Shown: piece after piece, positions 3,061 through 31,011 of the stretch
How the letters are laid out: each line of letters starts with the position of its first letter
How positions within the stretch are numbered: position 1 is the stretch's first letter
NCBI GenBank assembly: GCA_021296315.1
Contig: JAGWAO010000005.1
Location: forward strand, 44,514 to 83,113
Direction: 5' to 3'
DNA from: Acidimicrobiia bacterium
GTDB lineage: Bacteria > Actinomycetota > Acidimicrobiia > Acidimicrobiales > Aldehydirespiratoraceae
Length of the DNA stretch: 38,600 nucleotides
Made by a program: the position numbers and the translations under genes
The notes under the pieces: generated by a model
The model's input: only the letters and a program-made list of their open reading frames with translations
Told to the model about the DNA's origin: nothing
The model's database searches: none

Positions 3061-3147
3061 TCCCGCTCTTGTTCGCTGCGCTCACGGGCCGCTCGGGCCA
3101 CGGCCTCACCCGTATGGGCCGCATCGCGGCCGACCCGCTCGGCCTCT
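3061..3147 (+). repeat. Interspersed repeat, copy A
   Basis: Head TCCCGCTCTTGTTCGCTGCGCTCACGGGCCGCTCGGGCCACGGCCTC, tail CTCGGCCTCT; shared with 4183-4272, 11780-11841 and 31052-31148. Confidence 0.85.
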
Positions 3148-4142
3148 CACACGTAGGCGACGCCCAGTTCTTCCTTGAGCATTCGGCGATAGGCGATGGC
3201 GCCGGCGTCGGCCACCTTGACGTGGAGTTCCTCGGTCAAGTCCACGGGAACCATGTGAGGCCGCTGGCTCTCGATGATGTCCTTGTCCTGGGGCAGCAGC
3301 AGGTCGAGGAAGTCGATGAACTCCTGATCAGGAGTGTCGAGAGAGTGGTTGCGCGACTCGTAGCGCCACAGCGCGCAGCGATGCTCGTCAATCGGATGAT
3401 GAAGGCCCCAGATCGTGGTGGTGCCGCGCTCGCCTCGAAAGATCAGTGTGAACGTGTAGGGCATTTCCACCCGGATCTCGTGACGGACGGTCTCAACCCC
3501 GTCGGCGAACGTCTCCGGACCGACCGACCGCTTGGTGTACCGCATGTAGACGACACCGTCGTCGATCTCGACGTCATAAGGCTCGATCACCGTGTCGCCC
3601 GGGGACCCCAGCAACCCCGGATGCACAAAGTCCAGGTGGGCCAGATCCAGCGCGTTCTCCGCGAACCGAGCCGCTCCCGCCTCCCGGATCCCGCAGAACT
3701 TGCTCCAGGTATGGAACTCGGGATCATCCAACCACGGGTACTCGGGCACGGGCTTCAAGGGATCCTCCAGAGCGACCCACACCAACCCGTACCGCTCCTC
3801 ACAACCGTACGCAACGGCCTTGGCCCGCCCCGGGATTCGCTGAGCATCGGCCGGCTGGGACGGGATCAGCACACAGGTCCCGTCTGCGTCGTACTTCCAT
3901 CCGTGGTACGGACACTGCAGACACCCGTCGTCAGTCACCCAGCCCAACGACAGGCGCGTCCCCCGATGCACACACAGGTCGGCGAAGCACCTCACCGCCC
4001 CACCGGAACGGAACAGCACCAGACCCTCACCCAGCAACGTCACCGCAACCGGCGAGTCCTCCACCCACGAAGACTCAGCCACCGGATGCCAGAAACGCCT
4101 CAACGGCGCCAGGTCCGCACCAGCCGACATCTGCGTCACCAT
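3147..4142 (-). CDS. Rieske [2Fe-2S] ring-hydroxylating oxygenase alpha subunit (RHO1)
   Basis: Rieske CVHRG...CLQCPYHGW; iron-site ENALDLAHLDFVH; start placed at MVTQMSAGADLAPLRRFWHPVAE (upstream in-frame extension overlaps repeat B). Confidence 0.92.
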   Translation of the reverse strand: MVTQMSAGADLAPLRRFWHPVAESSWVEDSPVAVTLLGEGLVLFRSGGAVRCFADLCVHRGTRLSLGWVTDDGCLQCPYHGWKYDADGTCVLIPSQPADAQRIPGRAKAVAYGCEERYGLVWVALEDPLKPVPEYPWLDDPEFHTWSKFCGIREAGAARFAENALDLAHLDFVHPGLLGSPGDTVIEPYDVEIDDGVVYMRYTKRSVGPETFADGVETVRHEIRVEMPYTFTLIFRGERGTTTIWGLHHPIDEHRCALWRYESRNHSLDTPDQEFIDFLDLLLPQDKDIIESQRPHMVPVDLTEELHVKVADAGAIAYRRMLKEELGVAYV

Positions 4143-4182
4143 GTTCCCCCTTCGATGTGACAGCCAACGGCGCTCGTACCCT

Positions 4183-4272
4183 AGAGGCCGAGCGAATAGC
4201 CGAGCCAATCCGGTCCATACGGGCGAGGCCGTGGCCCGAGCGGCCCTCAGGTCGCTGCGAACAAGAGCGGGA
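4183..4272 (-). repeat. Interspersed repeat, copy B (inverted relative to copy A)
   Basis: Reverse complement reads TCCCGCTCTTGTTCGCAGCGACCTGAGGGCCGCTCGGGCCACGGCCTCGCCCGTATGG...CTCGGCCTCT. Confidence 0.85.
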
Positions 4273-4351
4273 ACCACACCGCTGTGCCGCGTTCGCCTCC
4301 CAACTACAGGCGAACGCACTCAGCGAACGGCTCAAGGGCCGGGCGAGCCGC

Positions 4352-4419: not shown

Positions 4420-5859
4420 ATGGGAGCTATGCGCAGGTCGGGAGGCCGGTCGTGGATGGTGACGCTTGTTGCCGTCCTGGCCGCCTTCACCTTGATGGCC
4501 GCAGCCTGCGGCGAGGACGATGAGCCCGCACCCGCACCCGCCGCACCCGCGGTGGACACCGCGGCCCTTGAGGCGGCCCAAGCGGACGCCGCGGCTGCTC
4601 AAGCGGACGCCGCGGCTGCCCTAGCGGGGGCGAGCGCCGCGGCCGAAGCGGCCGCCGAGGCCCAAGCGGCCCTTGAAGCTGCGCTGGCAGAAGCCATGGC
4701 CGCGGCAGAGGGCCAGGTAGACCCGGAGACTGTGGCTGCGCTCGACGCACAGCTGCAGGAGGCCCAGGCTGCTGCCGAGGCAGCCGAAGCCGAGGCCGCA
4801 GCTGCAGCCGCGGAAGCCGAGGCGGCCACCGCGGCGGCCGAGGCGGCCCAGGCTGAGGCAGCCGAGGCCGCGGCTACGGCCGAGGAGGCTGCCGCCGGCC
4901 CGACCGACCCGTGCGGCGGCGAGAACGAGACCAGCACCGTCACCATCATGATGGATTGGCTCGCCTACTGGAGTTGGGCTGCGCTCGTAGCTGCCGACGA
5001 CCAGGGCTACTACGCCGAGGAGGGTCTCAAGGTGGACATCATCGCTCCGCCTTCGGCCGCTGAGCCGCTCAAGATGCTGGCGGCCGACCAGGTCGACTTC
5101 GCCATCAACTACGTGCCGGCCCTGTTCACCGCCCGTGCCGCAGGCATCGATGTCAAGGCAGTGGCCGCCCACCAGCGGAACCTGTCCTCGAGCCTGTTCT
5201 GGCTGCCCGACGCCGGCATCGAGGGCCCCCAGGACTTCCGGGGCAAGACCATCGGCGCCACGGCCAAGCTCGACGAGAACGCCTACCTCGACACCCTGCT
5301 CGAGAGCGAGGGCATGACCCGCGACGACATCACCATCGTCGATCCGGGCTTCTCGTGGGCGCCGCTGCTGCTGGAAGGCGCGATCGACGTCGCCTACGGC
5401 GTGGCTCCCAGCCCGGCGTCCATGAAGGGCATCGGCGGCCCGTTCGACCTGGTACGCCTTGAGTACAAGGACTACGGGGTGCCCAACTATCCGTGGCTGC
5501 TGTTCGTGTCCAGCGACGCCTTCCTCAACGAGAACCCGGCTGCAACCTGCAGGTTCCTGCGGGCCACCAACCGGGGCATCGCCTACGCCTACAGCGACGA
5601 CGCCACCACCGAGGCCATTGCCAACATGCTGCACGGCATCAACGACGGCTTCTCGGTGCAGACGAGCCTCGACCATGCCGGGCTGATGAGGGCCGACTTC
5701 TTCGACGAGAACGGTCAGTGGGGCCAGCTGGTCGAGTCCGACTGGGATGCCGGCCGGGCGTGGCTGGTCGAGCGTGGGCTGCTCGAGGCGGACAGCACCG
5801 TTCAGGTGTCCGACGTGATGACCAACGAGCACATCACCAAGGCTCTCGCGTCCGAGTAG
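4420..5859 (+). CDS. NitT/TauT (NMT1/THI5-like) ABC substrate-binding lipoprotein with long Ala/Glu-rich coiled-coil stalk (SBP1)
   Basis: Lipobox MAAAC; ~115-aa A/E/Q-rich segment; then TIMMDWLAYWSWAALVAADDQGYYAEEGLKVDII and SsuA/NMT1-like body. Confidence 0.88.
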   Translation: MGAMRRSGGRSWMVTLVAVLAAFTLMAAACGEDDEPAPAPAAPAVDTAALEAAQADAAAAQADAAAALAGASAAAEAAAEAQAALEAALAEAMAAAEGQVDPETVAALDAQLQEAQAAAEAAEAEAAAAAAEAEAATAAAEAAQAEAAEAAATAEEAAAGPTDPCGGENETSTVTIMMDWLAYWSWAALVAADDQGYYAEEGLKVDIIAPPSAAEPLKMLAADQVDFAINYVPALFTARAAGIDVKAVAAHQRNLSSSLFWLPDAGIEGPQDFRGKTIGATAKLDENAYLDTLLESEGMTRDDITIVDPGFSWAPLLLEGAIDVAYGVAPSPASMKGIGGPFDLVRLEYKDYGVPNYPWLLFVSSDAFLNENPAATCRFLRATNRGIAYAYSDDATTEAIANMLHGINDGFSVQTSLDHAGLMRADFFDENGQWGQLVESDWDAGRAWLVERGLLEADSTVQVSDVMTNEHITKALASE

Positions 5860-5898
5860 TCGAGGACCTCACAACCGCGGGCTCGCGAGAGTCCGGCA

Positions 5899-6738
5899 GT
5901 GGCTAACGAGAGTTCGGCCCGTTCAGGGCGCGGCCGCCGGTTTGGCGGCCGCGTCCTGGACGCGCTGCCCGCAGTGGGCGCGGGCGTGCTGGCCCTGGCT
6001 GCCTGGGAGTTGTTCGTCCCGATAACCGGCGTCAAGTCCTACCTGCTGCCACCGGCCCACAGCGTTGTGGCCGAGGCCATCACCGATGCCAGCGACCGGT
6101 TCCTCCCCGCCTCCTGGATCACCCTCCAGGAAGTGCTCATCGGCTTCGTCATAGGCTGCGGGCTGGGGATCCTCCTCGGCATCCTCCTGTCGATCAGCCC
6201 GCCGGTCGAGCGGGCGGTGATGCCCGTCATTGCGGGCGTGAGGGCCATGCCCGCTCTGGTGGTGGCCCCGCTGTTCGTGATCTGGTACGGGTTCACACTC
6301 ACGCCGAAGGTCCTGGTCGCCGCGTTCGTCTGCTTCTTCCCGGCCCTGGTCAACACCACCGCCGGCCTGACCATTACGCCGGAAGCGGAGCGCCAGCTGT
6401 TCAGGTCGCTGGGAGCAGGCCCGCTCCAGATGTACACGAAGCTCCGGCTGCCGGCCGCGCTGCCCTACATCTTCATCGGCGCCAAGAACGCGGTCGTCCT
6501 CTCGGTCATCGGGGCGATCGTGGGAGAATGGGTCGGCGGCGGCGGCGGGATCGGGCGGATGATGATCGACTCGGTGACGTCCAACCGGACCGAGAGGCTG
6601 ATGGCCGCTGTCGGCTACAGCGCGGCCATGGCCATCAGCTTGTTCCTGTTGGTGTCGGCTATCGAGCGGTTGTCGCTGCGGTGGTACTTCCTGTCGCGGG
6701 GAACGCGGTCGGGCGCCAACGCGGCAGTGAGGGGCTAG
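5899..6738 (+). CDS. NitT/TauT-type ABC permease
   Basis: LPASWITLQEVLIGFVIG, AMPALVVAPLFVIWYGFTLTPKVLVAAFVCFFP, EAA-loop-like FRSLGAGPLQMYTKLRLPAALPYIFIGAKNA. Confidence 0.9.
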   Translation: MANESSARSGRGRRFGGRVLDALPAVGAGVLALAAWELFVPITGVKSYLLPPAHSVVAEAITDASDRFLPASWITLQEVLIGFVIGCGLGILLGILLSISPPVERAVMPVIAGVRAMPALVVAPLFVIWYGFTLTPKVLVAAFVCFFPALVNTTAGLTITPEAERQLFRSLGAGPLQMYTKLRLPAALPYIFIGAKNAVVLSVIGAIVGEWVGGGGGIGRMMIDSVTSNRTERLMAAVGYSAAMAISLFLLVSAIERLSLRWYFLSRGTRSGANAAVRG

Positions 6739-6741
6739 ACG

Positions 6742-7536
6742 ATGTCGCGAGCACGGCTCGCCAACCTGTTGCGCACCGTCGGTGGACCGCTGCTGGCTCT
6801 GACCGTGCTGCTCGTGGCCTACGAGCTCTGGCGGCGCATCTCCGGCCAGCCCCACTTCCTCGTGCCGGACACACCCGACGTGATCGTCACCGCAGTCGTC
6901 GACGCCCAGGACACGCTGTGGCCCGCGGCATGGGTGACGCTCAAGGAGGCGATCTACGGGCTGCTGCTGGCAACCGCAGTCGGATGGACCCTCGGAGTGG
7001 TGGCGCAGGAGTCGAAGATCCTCGAGAAGGCGGTGATGCCCTATGCGGTCGTGTCGCAGGCGATTCCCACGCTGGCCATCGCTCCCCTGCTGATCCTGTG
7101 GTTCGGCTTCACCCTCCTTCCCAAGATCCTGGTCGCCGCTCTGCTCTGCTTCTTCCCGATACTCATCAACACCCACGCCGGGATGCGATCACTCGAATCC
7201 GAGTACCTCGACCTGATGTACTCGCTGGAGGCGGGCCGCTGGCAGACGCTCTTCAAGGTTCGCCTCCCCGCCGCGGTGCCGTTCATGTTCGCCGGCTTGA
7301 AGAACGGATGTGTCCTCGCCGTAGTGGGCGCCCTCGTGGCCGAGTGGGTCGGCGCCCATGAAGGCATGGGGCCGCTCATCATCCGATCCCTGGGGGTCTT
7401 CAAGACCACCATCGTCTTCGCGGCCATCCTGTACCTGTCCTTCATGTCCATCGCGCTGTTCTGGATTGTGAGCGCGATCGAGCGAATCGTCCTGCGCATC
7501 CTCTACGGGCGCCAGTCGTTGTCGACGGCTGCCTGA
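6742..7536 (+). CDS. NitT/TauT-type ABC permease (second, adjacent paralog)
   Basis: AIPTLAIAPLLILWFGFTLLPKILVAALLCFFPILINT, RWQTLFKVRLPAAVPFMFAGLKNG. Confidence 0.9.
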   Translation: MSRARLANLLRTVGGPLLALTVLLVAYELWRRISGQPHFLVPDTPDVIVTAVVDAQDTLWPAAWVTLKEAIYGLLLATAVGWTLGVVAQESKILEKAVMPYAVVSQAIPTLAIAPLLILWFGFTLLPKILVAALLCFFPILINTHAGMRSLESEYLDLMYSLEAGRWQTLFKVRLPAAVPFMFAGLKNGCVLAVVGALVAEWVGAHEGMGPLIIRSLGVFKTTIVFAAILYLSFMSIALFWIVSAIERIVLRILYGRQSLSTAA

Positions 7537-7545
7537 CCCGGCCCC

Positions 7546-8535
7546 GTGCGGTTCGGTTTCGGTTTCGTCCCGGTGCCGGGGCAAGTGCGGCGCGTCGCGC
7601 CGATGCTGGAGCAGCTCGGCTTCGACAGCCTCGCCGTCACCGACCACCCCACCGGCGCCACCGAGCACTTCAGCCAGATGATGCTGGCCGCCGAGCTGAC
7701 CGAGCGCATTGAGATCGGGGGCGGGGTCACGGTCGCGCCCCTCCGGCATCCCGCGGTCACCGCGTCGGGTCTCAACACGTTGCAGTTCGAGTCCGGGGGG
7801 CGGGCGTTCTGCGGGATCGGCCGCGGCGACGCCGGCGTGTTCTCGCTGGGACACGAGCCCCAGTCGATGGCGGACTTCGACGCGTACCTCTCGGAGCTGC
7901 GGCGCTTCCTTCACGGCGGCCTCGGATGGTCACAGGACCTCGATCTGCCGCGCGTGCCCCTCGACGTCGCGGTGAGCGGCCCCCGGATGTGCGATCTGGC
8001 CGGCCGCCACGCCGACCGGATCACCCTCGCCGTCGGCGCCGATCCCGTCGTGGTCGGTGACTGGCTGCAACGAGCCCGCGGCTCGGTGGAGAGGGCCGGA
8101 CGTGACCCCGACGGTGTCGAGTACGGTGCCTACACCCCGTGCGTGCTCGCCGACGACATCGAGACAGCCGTCTCCGGCGCCCGCCACATCACTGCGGTCT
8201 TCGCCCGCTTCTCCGCCATGCGGGGCCAGCGCAGCCCCCGATCGATACCTCCCATGCTAGAAGAGACCGCCGAAGCGGTCGACCGCGTGATCGGGCATGC
8301 ACCCGATCTCGCCATCGACGTCACCGACGTCGTGGCTGACGAGTTCGTGCACTGGTTCGCCGTCGCGGGAGGACCCGCGCATGCCGTTGACCGCTTCCAG
8401 GCCTTGGCGGATCTGGGCCTCGACCATGTGCAACTGGTGTCAGGCCTGCACGAACTCCCCGCCGAGGTCGCCGACCGCCACCTCGAACTCGTCGGCAACG
8501 CGGTGATTCCCGCCGTCACCGAGGCCGCCTTATGA
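7546..8535 (+). CDS. LLM-class (F420/flavin-dependent) oxidoreductase
   Basis: GTG start; MRFGFGFVPVPGQ...LGFDSLAVTDHP...RIEIGGGVTVAPLRHPAVTASGLNTLQFESGGRAFCGIGRGD. Confidence 0.85.
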   Translation: MRFGFGFVPVPGQVRRVAPMLEQLGFDSLAVTDHPTGATEHFSQMMLAAELTERIEIGGGVTVAPLRHPAVTASGLNTLQFESGGRAFCGIGRGDAGVFSLGHEPQSMADFDAYLSELRRFLHGGLGWSQDLDLPRVPLDVAVSGPRMCDLAGRHADRITLAVGADPVVVGDWLQRARGSVERAGRDPDGVEYGAYTPCVLADDIETAVSGARHITAVFARFSAMRGQRSPRSIPPMLEETAEAVDRVIGHAPDLAIDVTDVVADEFVHWFAVAGGPAHAVDRFQALADLGLDHVQLVSGLHELPAEVADRHLELVGNAVIPAVTEAAL

Positions 8536-9392
8536 CCATGGCCCCAGCCGCGGCGACGGATGCCCGGTCGCAACTGGCGCCGCTGCGCCGGTACTGGCAT
8601 CCCGTCGAGGACAGTGCAGCCGTGGGGAACAGACCCACCGCGGTGACCCTCCTTGAGGAGGACCTGGTGCTGTTCCGCTCGCAGGGTCGGGTCCACGCCC
8701 TCGCAGACTCCCGCCCCAAGGCCTGCGTCGACCCCTACCGCGCCGAGGACCGCTACGGCCTGGTGTGGGTGGCGCTGGAGGATCCGGTTGCCGATATCGC
8801 GCCCTTCCCGGAGTACACCGACAGCAGCTACCGGAGCTACCTCTCGGTCACATCCAGCTGGAACGCCAGCGCGGGCCGGTTCACCGAGAACGGTCTGGAC
8901 ATCACCCACTTCGCCTGGGTGCACCCCGGAGCCCTCGGCGACCGTGACGACGCCGAATGCCCCGCCATCGACATCCATGTGACCAGCTACGGATTCGAGT
9001 ACGCCTACAGCCGCGAGTCGCTGGAATCACCCTTCGCCACCGGCGGCCAGACCATCCACAGCCGGACCATGCACCACCTCCCCTTCACCCGGCGCCGGAT
9101 CCTCACCTCGGATGCCGGCCATTCGGTGCAATACGTGACCGCCTCGCCGACGCGGGCCCGCCAGTGCAAGATCTGGATGATCGAGTCACGCAACCATCAC
9201 GTCACCGATCCGATCGAGCCCTACATCGACTTCTCCCGCGAGCTGCTCGAGCAGGATCGGCAGATCGTGGAGAGCCAGCGACCGGAGATGCTGCCGATCG
9301 ACCTCACCACCGAACTGCACCTGCGGGGGCCGGACCAGGTAGCCCTCACGTACCGGCGGCTGCTGGCGGACGCGGGGGTCGCCGATGTCTGA
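8532..9392 (+). CDS. RHO alpha-like protein lacking the Rieske cluster segment (RHO2)
   Basis: Starts LAPLRRYWHPVEDS...LVLFRSQGRVHALADS then jumps to RPKACVDPYRAEDRYGLVWVALED; no CxH/CxxH motif; iron site ENGLDITHFAWVH and EQDRQIVESQRPEM kept. Confidence 0.85.
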   Translation: MTMAPAAATDARSQLAPLRRYWHPVEDSAAVGNRPTAVTLLEEDLVLFRSQGRVHALADSRPKACVDPYRAEDRYGLVWVALEDPVADIAPFPEYTDSSYRSYLSVTSSWNASAGRFTENGLDITHFAWVHPGALGDRDDAECPAIDIHVTSYGFEYAYSRESLESPFATGGQTIHSRTMHHLPFTRRRILTSDAGHSVQYVTASPTRARQCKIWMIESRNHHVTDPIEPYIDFSRELLEQDRQIVESQRPEMLPIDLTTELHLRGPDQVALTYRRLLADAGVADV

Positions 9393-10380
9393 AGTCGACC
9401 TCTCGCCGTTGCGGCCCTACTGGTACCCGGTCGGTCCCTCGAGCGAGATCGGGGCCGAGCCAGCGGCCGTCACCATCCTCGACGAGCAGGTGGTGGTCTA
9501 CCGCTCACCCGGCGGCGTCCACGCCCTGCAGGACCTGTGCCTGCATCGCGGGTCCCGGTTGTCGCTCGGAACCGTGCGAGACAACTGCATCGTCTGCCCT
9601 CACCGCGGCTGGACCTACGGGCCCGACGGCCGATGCGTCCACATACCGTCGCTGCGGGCCACCCAGGCCGTGCCTGCGGAAGCCTCCGTTCGCTCCTACC
9701 GCGCCTGCGAAGAGTTCGGCATGGTGTGGGTGGCGCTTGAGGAGCCCCGGCTGCCCGTTCCCGAGTTCCCTGAGCACGAAGACCCCGAGTACCACGTGTT
9801 TCTTGCGGCCCGCTGGGACTGGACTGCGAGCGCGGGCCGGCTGGTCGAGAACAGCCTCGACATCGGCCATCTGCCCTGGGTGCACGGCGGGATGCTCGGT
9901 GACCGCGACAACCCGGGAACCATCGAGCCCTACAACTTCTCCGATCAGCCCTACTCCAGCGACCATCCGAACGCCGGCTTCACGTTCGAGTGGGACTGGG
10001 AGGAGGTGGACCGCAGCCAGTACGGCCGCCCGGGCGAGCGGCTCCACTACAAGTCCCGGCTGTACATGCCCTACACCCGGCGCAACACGATGTACGCACC
10101 CAAGGGCAACCTCACTCTGTACCAGCCGACGCTGCCGGTGTCGGCCGACCAGGTCGTGTTCTGGTACTTCATGGCGCGGAACCACTCGCTCGAAGTTCCG
10201 GACTCTCATTTCGGCAGCTTCAGCGCCAAGCTGCTGGCAGACGACAAGATCATCGTGGAGAACCAGCGGCCCAGGTCGCTGCCGGTAGATCTCGCCGAGG
10301 AGGTGCACCTTCGGGCCGCGGACACCGTGAGCCTCCACTATCGACGGGCACTGGCCGCCATCGGTGCCAGACACGCCTGA
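9385..10380 (+). CDS. RHO alpha subunit with atypical second Rieske motif CPHRGW (RHO3)
   Basis: LCLHRGSRLSLGTVRDNCIVCPHRGWTYG; iron site ENSLDIGHLPWVH; overlaps the stop of RHO2. Confidence 0.88.
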   Translation: MSEVDLSPLRPYWYPVGPSSEIGAEPAAVTILDEQVVVYRSPGGVHALQDLCLHRGSRLSLGTVRDNCIVCPHRGWTYGPDGRCVHIPSLRATQAVPAEASVRSYRACEEFGMVWVALEEPRLPVPEFPEHEDPEYHVFLAARWDWTASAGRLVENSLDIGHLPWVHGGMLGDRDNPGTIEPYNFSDQPYSSDHPNAGFTFEWDWEEVDRSQYGRPGERLHYKSRLYMPYTRRNTMYAPKGNLTLYQPTLPVSADQVVFWYFMARNHSLEVPDSHFGSFSAKLLADDKIIVENQRPRSLPVDLAEEVHLRAADTVSLHYRRALAAIGARHA

Positions 10381-10429: not shown

Positions 10430-11770
10430 ATGGGATCGGGTTCGGGTTCGGCGCGGCTGCTGGCCTGGATCCTGCTGTCCATCACCACCTATGGATTCGA
10501 TCTCATCTGCATCACCGCGCTGATGCCGACGATCCGCGACGACTTGGGCCGTGAGGAGCTCTACGGCGCGGTGTTCAGCGTGTTCATGCTGGGCAGCATC
10601 GTGAGCCTCGTTGTCGCCGGTCATCTTTCCGATCGGCTCGGCCCGGTCTTTCCCGGAGCGATCGCGCCGGCGTTGCTGGCCGCCGGGCTCCTCGGCGTGG
10701 CTCTGGCGCCGAGCATGGAAATGGTGGTCCTGGCTCGGGCGCTGTCGGGCTTGGGGGGCGGGGGCATCCTGTCCACCGCCTACGTCGCCGCGGGGCGCGG
10801 GTTCCCGCCGGAGAAGCGGGCCCGGCTCTTCGCCATCATCGGCAGCGGCTGGACGATCCCGTCGCTGATCGGGCCGTGGGCCGCGGACGCGGTCGAGGCC
10901 GCCTGGGGCTGGCGGTGGATGTTCGTGCTGCTGGTCCCGTGCTCCCTGCTGGCGGCGGTTCTGGCCGTGCCCATCGTTTCCAGCCTCTCCAGGCCCGAGA
11001 CCCATCCCGGCCCCCTGCGCAACGTCGGGCCGGCCATCGTCCTGGCGGTCAGCGCCTCACTCGTGCTGCTCGGCTCCGGGCCCTTCGCCGACCCCGTCGG
11101 CGCATGGCGCTACCTGCTGGTGGCACCGTGCGCAGTCGTCGGCTTCGTGGCCCTGCGCCGGCTGCTGCCCGATGGCACCCTCTCCGCCCGTCCGGGGCTT
11201 CCCGCCGCGGTGGCATCCCGCGGCCTGCTGGCGATGGCGTTCATGACGACCAACGCGTTCCTGCCACTAGCGCTGGTGGAGTTCCTGGACGCCAGCGTGG
11301 CCGGAGCCGGGATCGTTCTCACCGTCGCCGCGATCTCCTGGACCGCGGGAGCCTTCCTTCAGGCCCACCTGAGCCGGGCCTGGACGCCGCGGGGCACCGC
11401 CCGCCTCGGACTGGTGCTGGTCTGCGCGGGCATCATGGCCAGCGCAGTCGCGATCCGTTCCGACCTCTCGATCCTCGTTGCCTACGGCACCTGGGCTCTG
11501 GCCAGCATCGGCATGGGCCTCACCTACAACACGCTCTCCGTCTACGCCCTGAATGTCGCGCCCGCCGGAGGCGAGGGCCGCACCGCGGCGTCGCTGCAGC
11601 TGGCCGACCCGATCGGTGCCGCGGTCGGCACCGGCGTCGGCGGCGCGATCGTGGCCACCAGCCTCGGCTTCGTCGGCTTCTGGGCGATAATGGCCTCACT
11701 TACCGCCGTCGGCTTCGCGGCGGCCTCTGGGTTGGCTCAGACCGCCACATCGACCGCCTCCCTGCGATAG
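10430..11770 (+). CDS. MFS transporter
   Basis: Twelve-segment hydrophobic profile; LGSIVSLVVAGHLSDRLGPVFPG, ALSGLGGGGILSTAYVAAGRGFPPEKRARLFAI. Confidence 0.88.
   Translation: MGSGSGSARLLAWILLSITTYGFDLICITALMPTIRDDLGREELYGAVFSVFMLGSIVSLVVAGHLSDRLGPVFPGAIAPALLAAGLLGVALAPSMEMVVLARALSGLGGGGILSTAYVAAGRGFPPEKRARLFAIIGSGWTIPSLIGPWAADAVEAAWGWRWMFVLLVPCSLLAAVLAVPIVSSLSRPETHPGPLRNVGPAIVLAVSASLVLLGSGPFADPVGAWRYLLVAPCAVVGFVALRRLLPDGTLSARPGLPAAVASRGLLAMAFMTTNAFLPLALVEFLDASVAGAGIVLTVAAISWTAGAFLQAHLSRAWTPRGTARLGLVLVCAGIMASAVAIRSDLSILVAYGTWALASIGMGLTYNTLSVYALNVAPAGGEGRTAASLQLADPIGAAVGTGVGGAIVATSLGFVGFWAIMASLTAVGFAAASGLAQTATSTASLR
11721..11753 (+). repeat. 33-bp exact direct repeat, copy 1 (3' end of MFS gene)
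   Basis: cggcctctgggttggctcagaccgccacatcga, identical to 11834-11866. Confidence 0.97.
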
Positions 11771-15386: not shown

Positions 15387-15761
15387 CTAGGCCTGCGTCC
15401 CGCCCCCTTCGAGCACGGGGCCGTAGTAGACGTTCAGCTGCTGGATGAGCCCGCCGCGCACGGTGAAGAAGTCCGACAGCCAGGACACCTTGCCGCTCTC
15501 CGAGCGAGCCTGGACCTCCACGGCCACTACGTCGCCGTGCACGATCAACGGCCCGGTCTTGGGGCGCAGCCTGGCTCCGGCACCGAAGAAGTTCTCCTCG
15601 TAGTAGTCCGCGATCGCCTCGGCACCCTTCATGAAACCGGCATTGATGCTCACCAGTTCGGCATCGTCGGCGAGCAGGGCGCGCAACTGCGCCCGCGAGG
15701 CCGCCTGGACCGCGTCGAAGTACCCGCGAGCCACGGCCTCCGGGGATGGATTCTCAGACAT
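15387..15761 (-). CDS. SnoaL/NTF2-fold small protein
   Basis: ARGYFDAVQAASRAQLRALLADDAELVSINAGFMKGAEAIADYYEENFF...; overlaps the end of RHO5. Confidence 0.8.
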   Translation of the reverse strand: MSENPSPEAVARGYFDAVQAASRAQLRALLADDAELVSINAGFMKGAEAIADYYEENFFGAGARLRPKTGPLIVHGDVVAVEVQARSESGKVSWLSDFFTVRGGLIQQLNVYYGPVLEGGGTQA

Positions 15762-16776
15762 AGGTAACTCCTAACTCCTCCTTGAGGAGACGTCGGTAAG
15801 CGATCGCGCCCGCGTCAGCCACCTTGATGTGCAGTTCCTCGGTGAGGTCGACGGGAATCATCTGCGGCCGCTGGCTCTCGATCACCGTCTGATCCTGGGG
15901 CAGCAGCAGGTCAAGGAAGTCGATGAAGTCCTGATCGGGAACATCGAACGAGTGGTTGCGCGACTCGAAGCGCCAGAGGGCGCACCGGTCGCTGGTGATC
16001 GGATGGTGCAGCCCCCAGATCACGGTGGTGCCCCGGTGCCCGTCGATCTTCAGCGTGAACGTGTAGGGCAGCTCCAGGCTGGTCTCGCGATAGATGGTCT
16101 CATGGCCCTCGGCGAACGTCTCGGAACCGACCGACTGCTTGCTCGACCGCATGGTGACGGATCCTTCATCGACCTCCACGTCGTACGGATCGATGATGGT
16201 GTCGCCGTGGGTGCCCAGCAGCCCGGGGTGCACGAAATCCAAGTGGGCCAGGTCGAGCGCGTTCTCCGCGAATCGAGCCGCACCTGCCTCCCGGGTCCCG
16301 CAGAACTTGCTCCAGGTATGGAACTCGGGGTCGTCGAACCAAGGAAACTCGGGCAGCGGCCGCATCGGATCGTCCAGGGCCACCCACACCAGCCCGTAGC
16401 GCTCCTCGCACCCGTACGCGATGGCCCGGGCTCTTGGCGGAATGCGCTGGGAATCTGCGGGCTGTGAGGGAATGTGCACGCACGTGCCCTCGGCGTCGTA
16501 CTTCCAGCCGTGATAGGGACACTGCAGACAGCCGTCGTCGGTGACCCACCCCAGCGACAGGCGGGTCCCCCGATGGACACACAGATCAGAGAAGGCCCTC
16601 GGTGCGCCACCTGAACGGAAGAGCACCAGGCTCTCGCCCAGCAGCGTCACCGCAACCGGAGAATCGGCCACCCACGACGCCTCAGCCACCGGATGCCAGA
16701 AGCGGCGCAGGGGCGCCAGATCTACGTCCACCGCATCAGCCAGCACCAAACTGCCCCCTCTCTGTCGGGTCTCCAC
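15754..16776 (-). CDS. Rieske oxygenase alpha subunit (RHO5), close paralog of RHO1
   Basis: CVHRGTRLSLGWVTDDGCLQCPYHGWKYD; ENALDLAHLDFVHPGLLG. Confidence 0.93.
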   Translation of the reverse strand: METRQRGGSLVLADAVDVDLAPLRRFWHPVAEASWVADSPVAVTLLGESLVLFRSGGAPRAFSDLCVHRGTRLSLGWVTDDGCLQCPYHGWKYDAEGTCVHIPSQPADSQRIPPRARAIAYGCEERYGLVWVALDDPMRPLPEFPWFDDPEFHTWSKFCGTREAGAARFAENALDLAHLDFVHPGLLGTHGDTIIDPYDVEVDEGSVTMRSSKQSVGSETFAEGHETIYRETSLELPYTFTLKIDGHRGTTVIWGLHHPITSDRCALWRFESRNHSFDVPDQDFIDFLDLLLPQDQTVIESQRPQMIPVDLTEELHIKVADAGAIAYRRLLKEELGVTYV

Positions 16777-27474: not shown

Positions 27475-28485
27475 TCAGGCAAAGGAGATCCCGTGGCGCC
27501 TGAGCATCCGGCGATACTCGATCGAGCCCGCGTCCGCCACTTTCACATGCAACTCTTCGGAAAGATCGGTAGGCACCATCTCCGGCCTCTGGGTGACTAT
27601 TACCCTGCGATCCTGGCTCTCCAGCAGGTCATTGAACGCGATGTACTTGTCGTCGGGCTCGTTCTGATCATAATCTCGCGACTCGAAGAGCCAGAAGCCG
27701 CACTTGTCGCTCTGGATCGGATTGGTGGCAAAGAACAAAGCGACTCTGCCGCGCTCTGAGAAGATGCGCACAGTGAAGACGAATGGAAAGTCCACCCGGG
27801 TCTCGTGGCGGATCCTGTCGCCCTCCTCCGCGAAGGTCTCAGCGGCAGGCGGAAGTTCCTTGTAGAACATCGTCCACACTCCACCGTCATCCACCCGTGT
27901 CTCATACGGCTTGATCACCGATGAATTGGGATCGTCCGGATCGCCGAGCAAACCAGGATGAGCGAAGTCCAGGTGAGCAATGTCGAGCGAATTCTCACAG
28001 AGTCTTCCCGGACTGGCATCCCAGTCTCCGTAGTACTTCGACCAGGTATGGAATTCTGGATCCGCATACTCGGGATACTCGGGTATAGGTAGCTTGGGCT
28101 CCTCCATCGCGACCCACACCAGCCCGTACCTCTCCTCAGCACGATATGCGATAGCTCGTGCACGAGACGGAATGTGTTGGGCATCTCGCGGCTGCGACGG
28201 AATGTAGACGCACTTGCCGTTCGTGTTGTATACCCATCCATGGTATGGGCACTGAATGCAGCCGTCGTCTGTCACCCAGCCAAGCGATAGGCGTGTGCCT
28301 CGATGAACACAGATATCGGAGAAGGCATGAACTTGGCCCTCTGACCGGAACAACACCAGATCCTCACCCAGCAGCGTCACGCCAATAGGCTTGTCCCTCA
28401 CATCATCGGATGCCGCACACGCTTGCCAATAGCATCGGACAGGGGTTAGGTCAGGTGCGGCTACTGCAGGAGCAACGGCAGTCAT
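27475..28485 (-). CDS. Rieske oxygenase alpha subunit (RHO6)
   Basis: CVHRGTRLSLGWVTDDGCIQCPYHGWVYN; ENSLDIAHLDFAHPGLLG. Confidence 0.93.
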   Translation of the reverse strand: MTAVAPAVAAPDLTPVRCYWQACAASDDVRDKPIGVTLLGEDLVLFRSEGQVHAFSDICVHRGTRLSLGWVTDDGCIQCPYHGWVYNTNGKCVYIPSQPRDAQHIPSRARAIAYRAEERYGLVWVAMEEPKLPIPEYPEYADPEFHTWSKYYGDWDASPGRLCENSLDIAHLDFAHPGLLGDPDDPNSSVIKPYETRVDDGGVWTMFYKELPPAAETFAEEGDRIRHETRVDFPFVFTVRIFSERGRVALFFATNPIQSDKCGFWLFESRDYDQNEPDDKYIAFNDLLESQDRRVIVTQRPEMVPTDLSEELHVKVADAGSIEYRRMLRRHGISFA

Positions 28486-29025: not shown

Positions 29026-31011
29026 TCAGACGATTGTCACCCCCACCGAGGCCATCTCCTCTAGAGCCGCCGCGGTGGAATCCGGAGCGACCCCTGCACA
29101 GTGCGCGACCAGGACAGCCGTATCGAACCCGGCCTCGGCCGCGGCCAGTGCGGTGGCTCGAACGCAGTAGTCGGTGGCGATGCCCACTACGTCCACCGCC
29201 TCGACGCCGCGCTCCGCGAGCCAGTCCCGAAGCCCCACACCCTCACTCGATCCGGCAACGCCCTCGAAGCTGCTGTAGCCGCTGCTGTACTGACCCTTGA
29301 GGAACACCTCGTCCAGCGCTACCTGCAGGTTCGGCGAGAACGCGGCGCCCTGCGTGCCGGCCGCGCAGTGCACCGGCCACGACGTCACAAAGTCGGGGTT
29401 GGTGCCCGACGCGGCGTAGTGCTCCCCAGGGTCGATGTGCCAGTCCTTGGATGCGATGACATAGTCGTAGCGGCCTTCGGCTCTGTCCAGGCCGACCAGA
29501 TCGGTGATGGAGGCGGCCACCGCGTGCCCGCCCTCCACCGCCAGCGACCCGCCCTCACAGAAGTCGTTCTGCACGTCCACGATGATCAGCGCCTTCTGCA
29601 TCGCGTCTCCTCCTCCATCGGTCTGCTGGGCCTGCTCCGCCTGCCTGGACCGCCCTTCCGCTCCGTTCGATGATTCTGTCGCGGCGGGCGACTCCATTCC
29701 CACCCATTCGGTGGGTATGGCCGGGGAGCGCCGGGGATGCGGAACCCGATCCTCTCCACGTAGACCCTGGCGGCGCTCCGCACAGCGACGGCGAGCGGCG
29801 GCGGGGTCGTCCTGCCAAGCCCGCTCGCCGGCGGCCACCAGCACGACCTGTGGGTCGTGGGCGTCTGCGGGCCCGGTGTCGCCTACGGGCGACAGCACCT
29901 CCGCCTTCCAGTAGCCGTCGGCATCGACGGTGCGATGCACCTGCTTGCGACCACCCACGGTGGTCTTGCCCGGCGACAACTTGCCCACCGCCCGCAAGGG
30001 CGCGCCGGCGCCCGCGCCGTCTGCGATGGCCACCAGCTTGTACACCACCGAAGCGGTGGGATGACCCGACCCGGTGACCAGGCTGGTGCCCACGAGATAG
30101 GCGTCTATGGGGGCAGCCGCCTCCTCCAGCTCAGCCACGCGGAACTCGTCGAGATCCCCGCTGGCCACGATCCGGCAGCCCTCCGCGCCGAGCGAGTCGA
30201 GCAAGGTCCGGGCGCGGATGCTGGCCGCCAGCAGGTTGCCGCTGTCGATCCGCACTGCGCCGATGTCATACCCCACTACCTGCACCGCCCGGCGGATGCC
30301 CTCCAGCACGTCGAAGGTGTCGACCAGGTAGGTGGAGCCGGTGCCGAGAGCATCTCGTTGGGCCCTGAACGCGGTGCGCTCGTCGGCGTGGGCCAGCACG
30401 AAGGCGTGGGCGGTGGTGCCCCCGGTGGGGATGCCGTAGCGCCGGCCCGCCTCCAGGTTGGACGTGGTGTCGAAGCCGCCGATGTGGGCCGCACGGGCCG
30501 CGGCCACGGCCGCGTCGGGATCGGCGCGGCGGCCGCCGCCTTCGATGAGAAGGCGACCGTGAGCCACATCGCGCACCCGGGCCGCAGCGGAGGCGACCGC
30601 GCAGTCGTAGTTGAGGATCGACAGCACGACCGTCTCGAGAACCACGCACTCGGCGAACGTGCCCTCAACGGTCAGCACCGGCGAGTAGGGAAAGAACAGC
30701 TCGCCGTCGGGGTAGCCGGTGACGTCGCCACTGAAGCGGTAAGACCGCAGCCATTCGACTACGTCGGGATCGGACACGACGCCCGCGCCGACGAGATGGT
30801 CGACAGCCTCGTCGTCGAAGCGGAAACGTTCGATGGCGTCGATGATGCGGTCAGCTCCGGCTACGACGCCATAGGCACGTCCCGCCGGCAGCCGCCGGGC
30901 GAACGCCTCGAAGACGGCCCGGCGTTCGGCGATGCCGGACTGAAGGGCCGAGGCCACCATCGTGATCTCGTAGTGGTCGGTCTTCAGGGCCACAGAGGCA
31001 CCGCGATCCAC
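29026..31011 (-). CDS. Nicotinate phosphoribosyltransferase - nicotinamidase fusion ORF (PncB-PncA)
   Basis: N-terminal LKTDHYEITMVASAL...FDTTSNLEAGRRYGIPTGGTTAHAFV...KLSPGKTTVGGRKQVHR; C-terminal MQKALIIVDVQNDFCEGGSLAVEGG...ASKDWHIDPGEHY...GIATDYCVRATALAA in the same frame; internal ATG at 29601. Confidence 0.88.
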   Translation of the reverse strand: MDRGASVALKTDHYEITMVASALQSGIAERRAVFEAFARRLPAGRAYGVVAGADRIIDAIERFRFDDEAVDHLVGAGVVSDPDVVEWLRSYRFSGDVTGYPDGELFFPYSPVLTVEGTFAECVVLETVVLSILNYDCAVASAAARVRDVAHGRLLIEGGGRRADPDAAVAAARAAHIGGFDTTSNLEAGRRYGIPTGGTTAHAFVLAHADERTAFRAQRDALGTGSTYLVDTFDVLEGIRRAVQVVGYDIGAVRIDSGNLLAASIRARTLLDSLGAEGCRIVASGDLDEFRVAELEEAAAPIDAYLVGTSLVTGSGHPTASVVYKLVAIADGAGAGAPLRAVGKLSPGKTTVGGRKQVHRTVDADGYWKAEVLSPVGDTGPADAHDPQVVLVAAGERAWQDDPAAARRRCAERRQGLRGEDRVPHPRRSPAIPTEWVGMESPAATESSNGAEGRSRQAEQAQQTDGGGDAMQKALIIVDVQNDFCEGGSLAVEGGHAVAASITDLVGLDRAEGRYDYVIASKDWHIDPGEHYAASGTNPDFVTSWPVHCAAGTQGAAFSPNLQVALDEVFLKGQYSSGYSSFEGVAGSSEGVGLRDWLAERGVEAVDVVGIATDYCVRATALAAAEAGFDTAVLVAHCAGVAPDSTAAALEEMASVGVTIV

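Follow-up and report, generated by a model that had tools for sequence, protein, structure and literature searches.

We observed that RHO2, a VanA-type oxygenase subunit encoded in the 38.6-kb window (the whole stretch of DNA that was analysed), carries a deletion in its Rieske domain and keeps its catalytic residues intact, is under purifying selection, has an origin separate from that of NdmC, and occurs in a genome that also contains an NdmD-like reductase gene. RHO2 probably borrows its cluster from another protein. The more specific reading, for which we consider the chances about evenly balanced, is that RHO2 acts as a functional catalytic subunit using an external Rieske domain, most likely that of the NdmD-like reductase of this genome.

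Domain content and predicted structure of RHO2

The iron-sulfur cluster of Rieske oxygenases normally supplies electrons to the enzyme, and VanA_C is the catalytic domain of the VanA-type members. A Pfam scan of RHO2 returned VanA_C (PF19112) as the sole match (E 1.8e-15, 58.1 bits versus a cut-off of 23.5) and gave no match to the Rieske domain (PF00355); a comparison with NCBIfam also produced no match. The same kind of Pfam scan recovered both domains in RHO3, RHO5 and RHO6, and the Rieske domain of RHO1 was detected in a genome-wide scan. According to the preliminary description of this DNA, about 45 residues with both Cys-His motifs are missing from RHO2 and the reading frame is intact. 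This is borne out by the spacing between two conserved tryptophans (57 residues in RHO2 versus 104 in RHO1, RHO5 and RHO6, and 102 in RHO3), which corresponds to an in-frame loss of 45-47 residues, both motifs included. The segment that is gone is the cluster-binding subdomain of the Rieske domain.

The catalytic iron site, which had been described as kept, is indeed present: N120, D123, H126, H131 and D242 all occur in RHO2 and are invariant across the alignment of 29 homologous sequences. RHO2 thus retains the 2-His-1-Asp iron site together with the bridging Asp, which according to a review couples the iron to the cluster on the adjacent Rieske subunit (PMC12445004). The AlphaFold2 model of RHO2 is compact and confident (pLDDT 87.2, pTM 0.87), with values below 50 only at residues 1-8 and 62-65. 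The nearest solved structures identified with Foldseek were GxtA/SxtT and NdmA/NdmB (TMq 0.78-0.84), including GxtA with E 9e-21 and TMq 0.84, and NdmA with TMq 0.83. The protein is therefore predicted by the model to retain the fold of the VanA-type catalytic domain and the basal sheet (Table 1). The catalytic domain, iron ligands, bridging Asp and fold are common to RHO2, RHO1, RHO5, RHO6, GxtA/SxtT and NdmA/NdmB, but all of the latter carry the CxH...CxxH cluster, whereas RHO2 is devoid of the approximately 45 residues bearing it.

Table 1. Position of RHO2, its predicted structural elements and neighbouring genes within the window
Feature	Position	Strand	Basis or remarks
RHO1, intact Rieske oxygenase paralogue	3147..4319	-	Rieske domain from genome-wide scan
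NMT1/SsuA-like substrate-binding protein and two permease-like ORFs, upstream	4420..7536	+	NMT1 E 3.1e-49, SsuA_fam; permeases from translation only
LLM-class (luciferase-like, F420/flavin) oxidoreductase, first of the LLM-RHO2-RHO3 set	7546..8535	+	Bac_luciferase E 1.6e-37
RHO2, Rieske-less VanA-type oxygenase subunit	8532..9392	+	286 aa, ATG start
N-terminal strands of the Rieske basal fold predicted as retained, residues 23-58	8598..8705	+	Model strands E23-27, E36-40, E43-50, E53-58; pLDDT of the block mostly 91-97
Excision scar/linker, residues 58-68; both Cys-His motifs missing here	8703..8735	+	Trp spacing; low pLDDT at 62-65; 10 aa shorter in L028
Last strands of the Rieske basal fold predicted as retained, residues 69-81	8736..8774	+	Model strands E69-74, E77-81
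ENGLDITHFAWVH, bridging Asp D123 and iron ligands H126 and H131	8886..8924	+	Invariant in 29 aligned homologues
LLEQDRQIVESQRP, third iron ligand D242	9243..9284	+	Invariant in 29 aligned homologues
RHO3, Rieske oxygenase alpha of full length, cluster motif altered	9385..10380	+	Rieske and VanA_C; overlaps RHO2 by 8 nt
CPHRGW of RHO3 replacing CPYHGW (ligand His to Arg)	9595..9612	+	L028 copy identical at the motif
MFS transporter, downstream of RHO3	10430..11770	+	MFS_1 E 6.3e-33
RHO5, intact Rieske oxygenase paralogue	15754..16776	-	Rieske and VanA_C
RHO6, intact Rieske oxygenase paralogue	27475..28485	-	Rieske and VanA_C

Orthologues, selection and descent

The search for orthologues with the same deletion, proposed in the preliminary description, yielded two further copies, both under purifying selection. 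These were found in other assemblies, L028 (RHO2_bin_76) and L029 (jk18x40bins.8, i.e. G002, of the same genus as the window genome G000), and share 86-89% amino acid identity. The segment is missing in both of them (Trp spacing of 47 in L028, the linker of which is 10 aa shorter than that of RHO2, and 57 in L029). Since these copies come from other assemblies and have the same gap, the gap in RHO2 is not an assembly error. The pairwise dN/dS values, within the range 0.16-0.26, were 0.254 versus L028 (p 4e-8) and 0.159 versus L029 (p 2e-18; binomial test against neutral site proportions). The RHO2 branch leading to G002 had the lowest dN/dS of the three branches (0.13-0.14), a value that averages the time before and after the loss of RHO3 in that genome (see below) and is therefore no proof that RHO2 works without RHO3. 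All three genes are under purifying selection, which means that RHO2 is not a dead allele; an assembly error or a pseudogene was thus ruled out by the orthologues and dN/dS values.

The three genomes with RHO2 are all MAGs, 76-86% complete (G000, 86%). The dS to the window copy is lower for L028 (0.24) than for G002 of the same genus (0.52), and the contig that carries L028, only 2.3 kb long, belongs to a MAG assigned to a different family (G310; G067 is identical at this contig). The L028 copy results either from a transfer or from a binning error.

NdmC is the N7-demethylase subunit of NdmCDE in the caffeine pathway of Pseudomonas putida CBB5. It is devoid of a Rieske cluster, and its partners are NdmD, which carries an extra one, and the GST-like NdmE (PMC4408171). 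RHO2 resembles it in having a non-heme iron site and no Rieske cluster, and in the presence of a spare-Rieske reductase in the genome (PMC4408171). In a tree of 53 sequences, from which the cluster columns were left out, RHO2 and its orthologues were nested in a group with RHO1, RHO3, RHO5 and RHO6 (support 100/98), RHO3 being the sister of RHO2 (92/80, not starred, with long branches). A separate clade (100/100) was formed by 23 Rieske-less proteins, which came from the genus, a second genus of this family and rhizobial plasmids. Forcing RHO2 together with this NdmC-like clade, in which NdmC is represented by its rhizobial homologues, was rejected (AU test, p=0.00032), and RHO2 as an NdmC orthologue was thereby ruled out. 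Also in contrast to NdmC, RHO2 has no adjacent NdmD or NdmE genes, such genes being located elsewhere in the genome, and its residual linker differs (57 residues in RHO2 and 47 in L028 versus 68 in the rhizobial NdmC homologues). The NdmC precedent invoked in the preliminary description is therefore apt for a possible mode of working but does not hold by descent: RHO2 may share its mechanism with NdmC, but it is not an NdmC.

The loss of the cluster in RHO2 is independent of that in the NdmC-like clade. A third Rieske-less lineage is represented by L070:7080-8138 (genome G030), from another family of the same order, which likewise keeps the iron site; this gene is not an RHO2 orthologue, differing in its separate branch, its position ~0.7 kb from an intact oxygenase and its other neighbourhood. 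The tree thus indicates that the Rieske cluster has been lost at least three times. In the literature searched, we found no Rieske-less oxygenases beyond NdmC. G030 also contains a 691-aa ORF (L070:12421-14493) that fuses Rieske, VanA_C and 2OG-Fe(II) dioxygenase domains and thus unites two types of oxygenase in an unusual way.

True NdmC-like genes are numerous in the genus of RHO2. Some members of the clade have a GST gene and the gene of an NdmD-like Rieske-Fer2 reductase as neighbours, and the window genome itself has such a set (L054, 5090-5995, 6206-8215 and 8307-8951); others adjoin an intact oxygenase. In Mesorhizobium, the NdmC-like gene is followed by genes for a Rieske-domain protein, a GST and guaD. 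Several NdmC-like Rieske-less genes are located near an adenosine deaminase gene (L059, L061) or near genes for a nucleoside hydrolase and a PfkB kinase (L062), which suggests purine or nucleoside substrates for this clade.

Candidate sources of the cluster

The preliminary description pointed to a neighbour, RHO3, as the source of electrons or of the cluster. RHO3 is an unlikely donor, because its own cluster ligand is changed and because it has been lost in G002 while RHO2 was kept. In the second Rieske motif of RHO3, Arg takes the place of the His that would be the fourth ligand, and the residue before it is a His. The resulting CPHRGW occurs in both known copies of RHO3, which are the sole exceptions among the 47 distinct Rieske motifs collected. 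A scan of 397 genomes for the corresponding DNA pattern gave mostly chance matches; among the 30 inspected, a Rieske-domain context was found only for RHO3 and its L028 copy. In G002, RHO3 is represented by a 65-bp scar between RHO2, which is intact and constrained, and the MFS gene; in this scar the initial codons of RHO3 run out of frame into its final ones. The LLM gene, present in L028, has also been deleted in G002, where a similar scar marks its start, and the two scars (L029, about 394-459 and 1301-1366) flank the intact RHO2. Neither an RHO3 orthologue nor the LLM gene was found elsewhere in G002.

The NdmD-like protein, composed of Rieske, NAD-binding and Fer2 modules, is encoded in all three genomes with RHO2 (on C44 in G000, 82% in G002, and only in part, at the end of a contig, in the L028 genome). 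However, NdmD-like genes occur in 13 of the 16 genomes of the genus, so their co-occurrence with RHO2 is expected and constitutes weak evidence. In G000 the protein combines the Rieske, flavin/NAD and plant-type 2Fe-2S modules in a single chain, and its gene adjoins a GST/NdmE-like gene. This gene is the sole VanB-class reductase match found in G000 (2.66 Mb), versus 27 Rieske-domain matches, and no other match covering the reductase part of the protein was found there; as this MAG is 86% complete, a further reductase may be missing from the assembly. Neither an NdmD-like nor a GST gene was found within the window. In genome G007 the NdmC-like clade is represented by a Rieske-less gene, but no NdmD-like reductase was found there, which counts against a strict rule. 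Other candidates in G000 were rejected on reading their sequences: the one stand-alone Rieske ferredoxin inspected in full, on C9, sits between SufD- and SufC-like genes, and the Fer2 proteins followed up, those of C19, C44 (41895) and C4, looked unlike VanB-class reductases.

In our preferred reading, in which the NdmD-like reductase of G000 is the most likely donor, RHO2 has lost the cluster-binding subdomain by a deletion independent of NdmC, whereas the basal sheet, the bridging Asp between subunits and the mononuclear iron site are still there. Most likely RHO2 would assemble into the trimer usual for such enzymes, the cluster pocket being empty, and the external Rieske domain would dock to deliver electrons. 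The oxygenase activity of RHO2 and its substrate are both putative.

Alternatively, RHO2 might form a hetero-oligomer with an alpha subunit that does have a cluster (RHO3, or RHO1, RHO5 or RHO6), and this cluster would reduce the RHO2 iron across the subunit interface. We regard this as rather unlikely, although Rieske-to-iron transfer is normally intersubunit and NdmA/NdmB are listed as alpha3alpha'3 (PMC12445004). RHO2 and RHO3 overlap and are kept together in L028; moreover, one class of Rieske-less genes in the genus lies directly upstream of an intact oxygenase. The version with RHO3 is opposed by the loss of the fourth cluster ligand in both copies and by the scar in G002, where RHO2 persists and its branch has the lowest dN/dS of the three, whereas the intact RHO5 orthologue of G002 is compatible with an RHO2-RHO5 variant. 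It is quite improbable that RHO2 works without any Rieske cluster, for example receiving all its electrons from the substrate or a small reductant, or serving as a non-redox subunit. Such a role would agree with the intact iron site, with no donor having been found beside RHO2, and with the retention of RHO2 in G002 without LLM or RHO3, but the bridging Asp for Rieske-to-iron transfer is still invariant, and the characterised NdmA, NdmB and NdmC require a Rieske cluster (PMC4408171). A decaying gene or an assembly or binning error, already disfavoured, is highly improbable: the LLM-RHO2-RHO3 set is prone to deletions (L029 is without two of the three genes), but the frame is open, the gap is common to three assemblies, and both the dN/dS values and the conserved catalytic residues argue against decay.

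The independent and selected loss of just the cluster-binding subdomain in another lineage suggests that the cluster is a module which can be separated from the oxygenase and shared. RHO2 makes it testable whether a single reductase Rieske domain serves oxygenases of different descent. We tentatively propose that a spare-Rieske reductase might be a common donor for several oxygenases, the subunits of which repeatedly shed their clusters in these bacteria; RHO2 would be a second independent user, outside the NdmC lineage, and RHO3, its ligand being changed already, may follow.

Gene neighbourhood of RHO2

The start of RHO2 overlaps the preceding LLM gene (ATGA) and its end overlaps the start of RHO3 by 8 nt (ATGTCTGA), both indicative of translational coupling, in agreement with the coupled arrangement described previously. 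The characterised relatives of RHO2 are N-demethylases, O-demethylases and hydroxylases, and the NMT1/SsuA-like transporter encoded beside it suggests a small imported compound. The window also contains a 661-aa ORF (29026-31011, minus strand) that begins with a NAPRTase domain and ends with an isochorismatase (nicotinamidase-like) domain; its product may be a fusion enzyme of NAD salvage.
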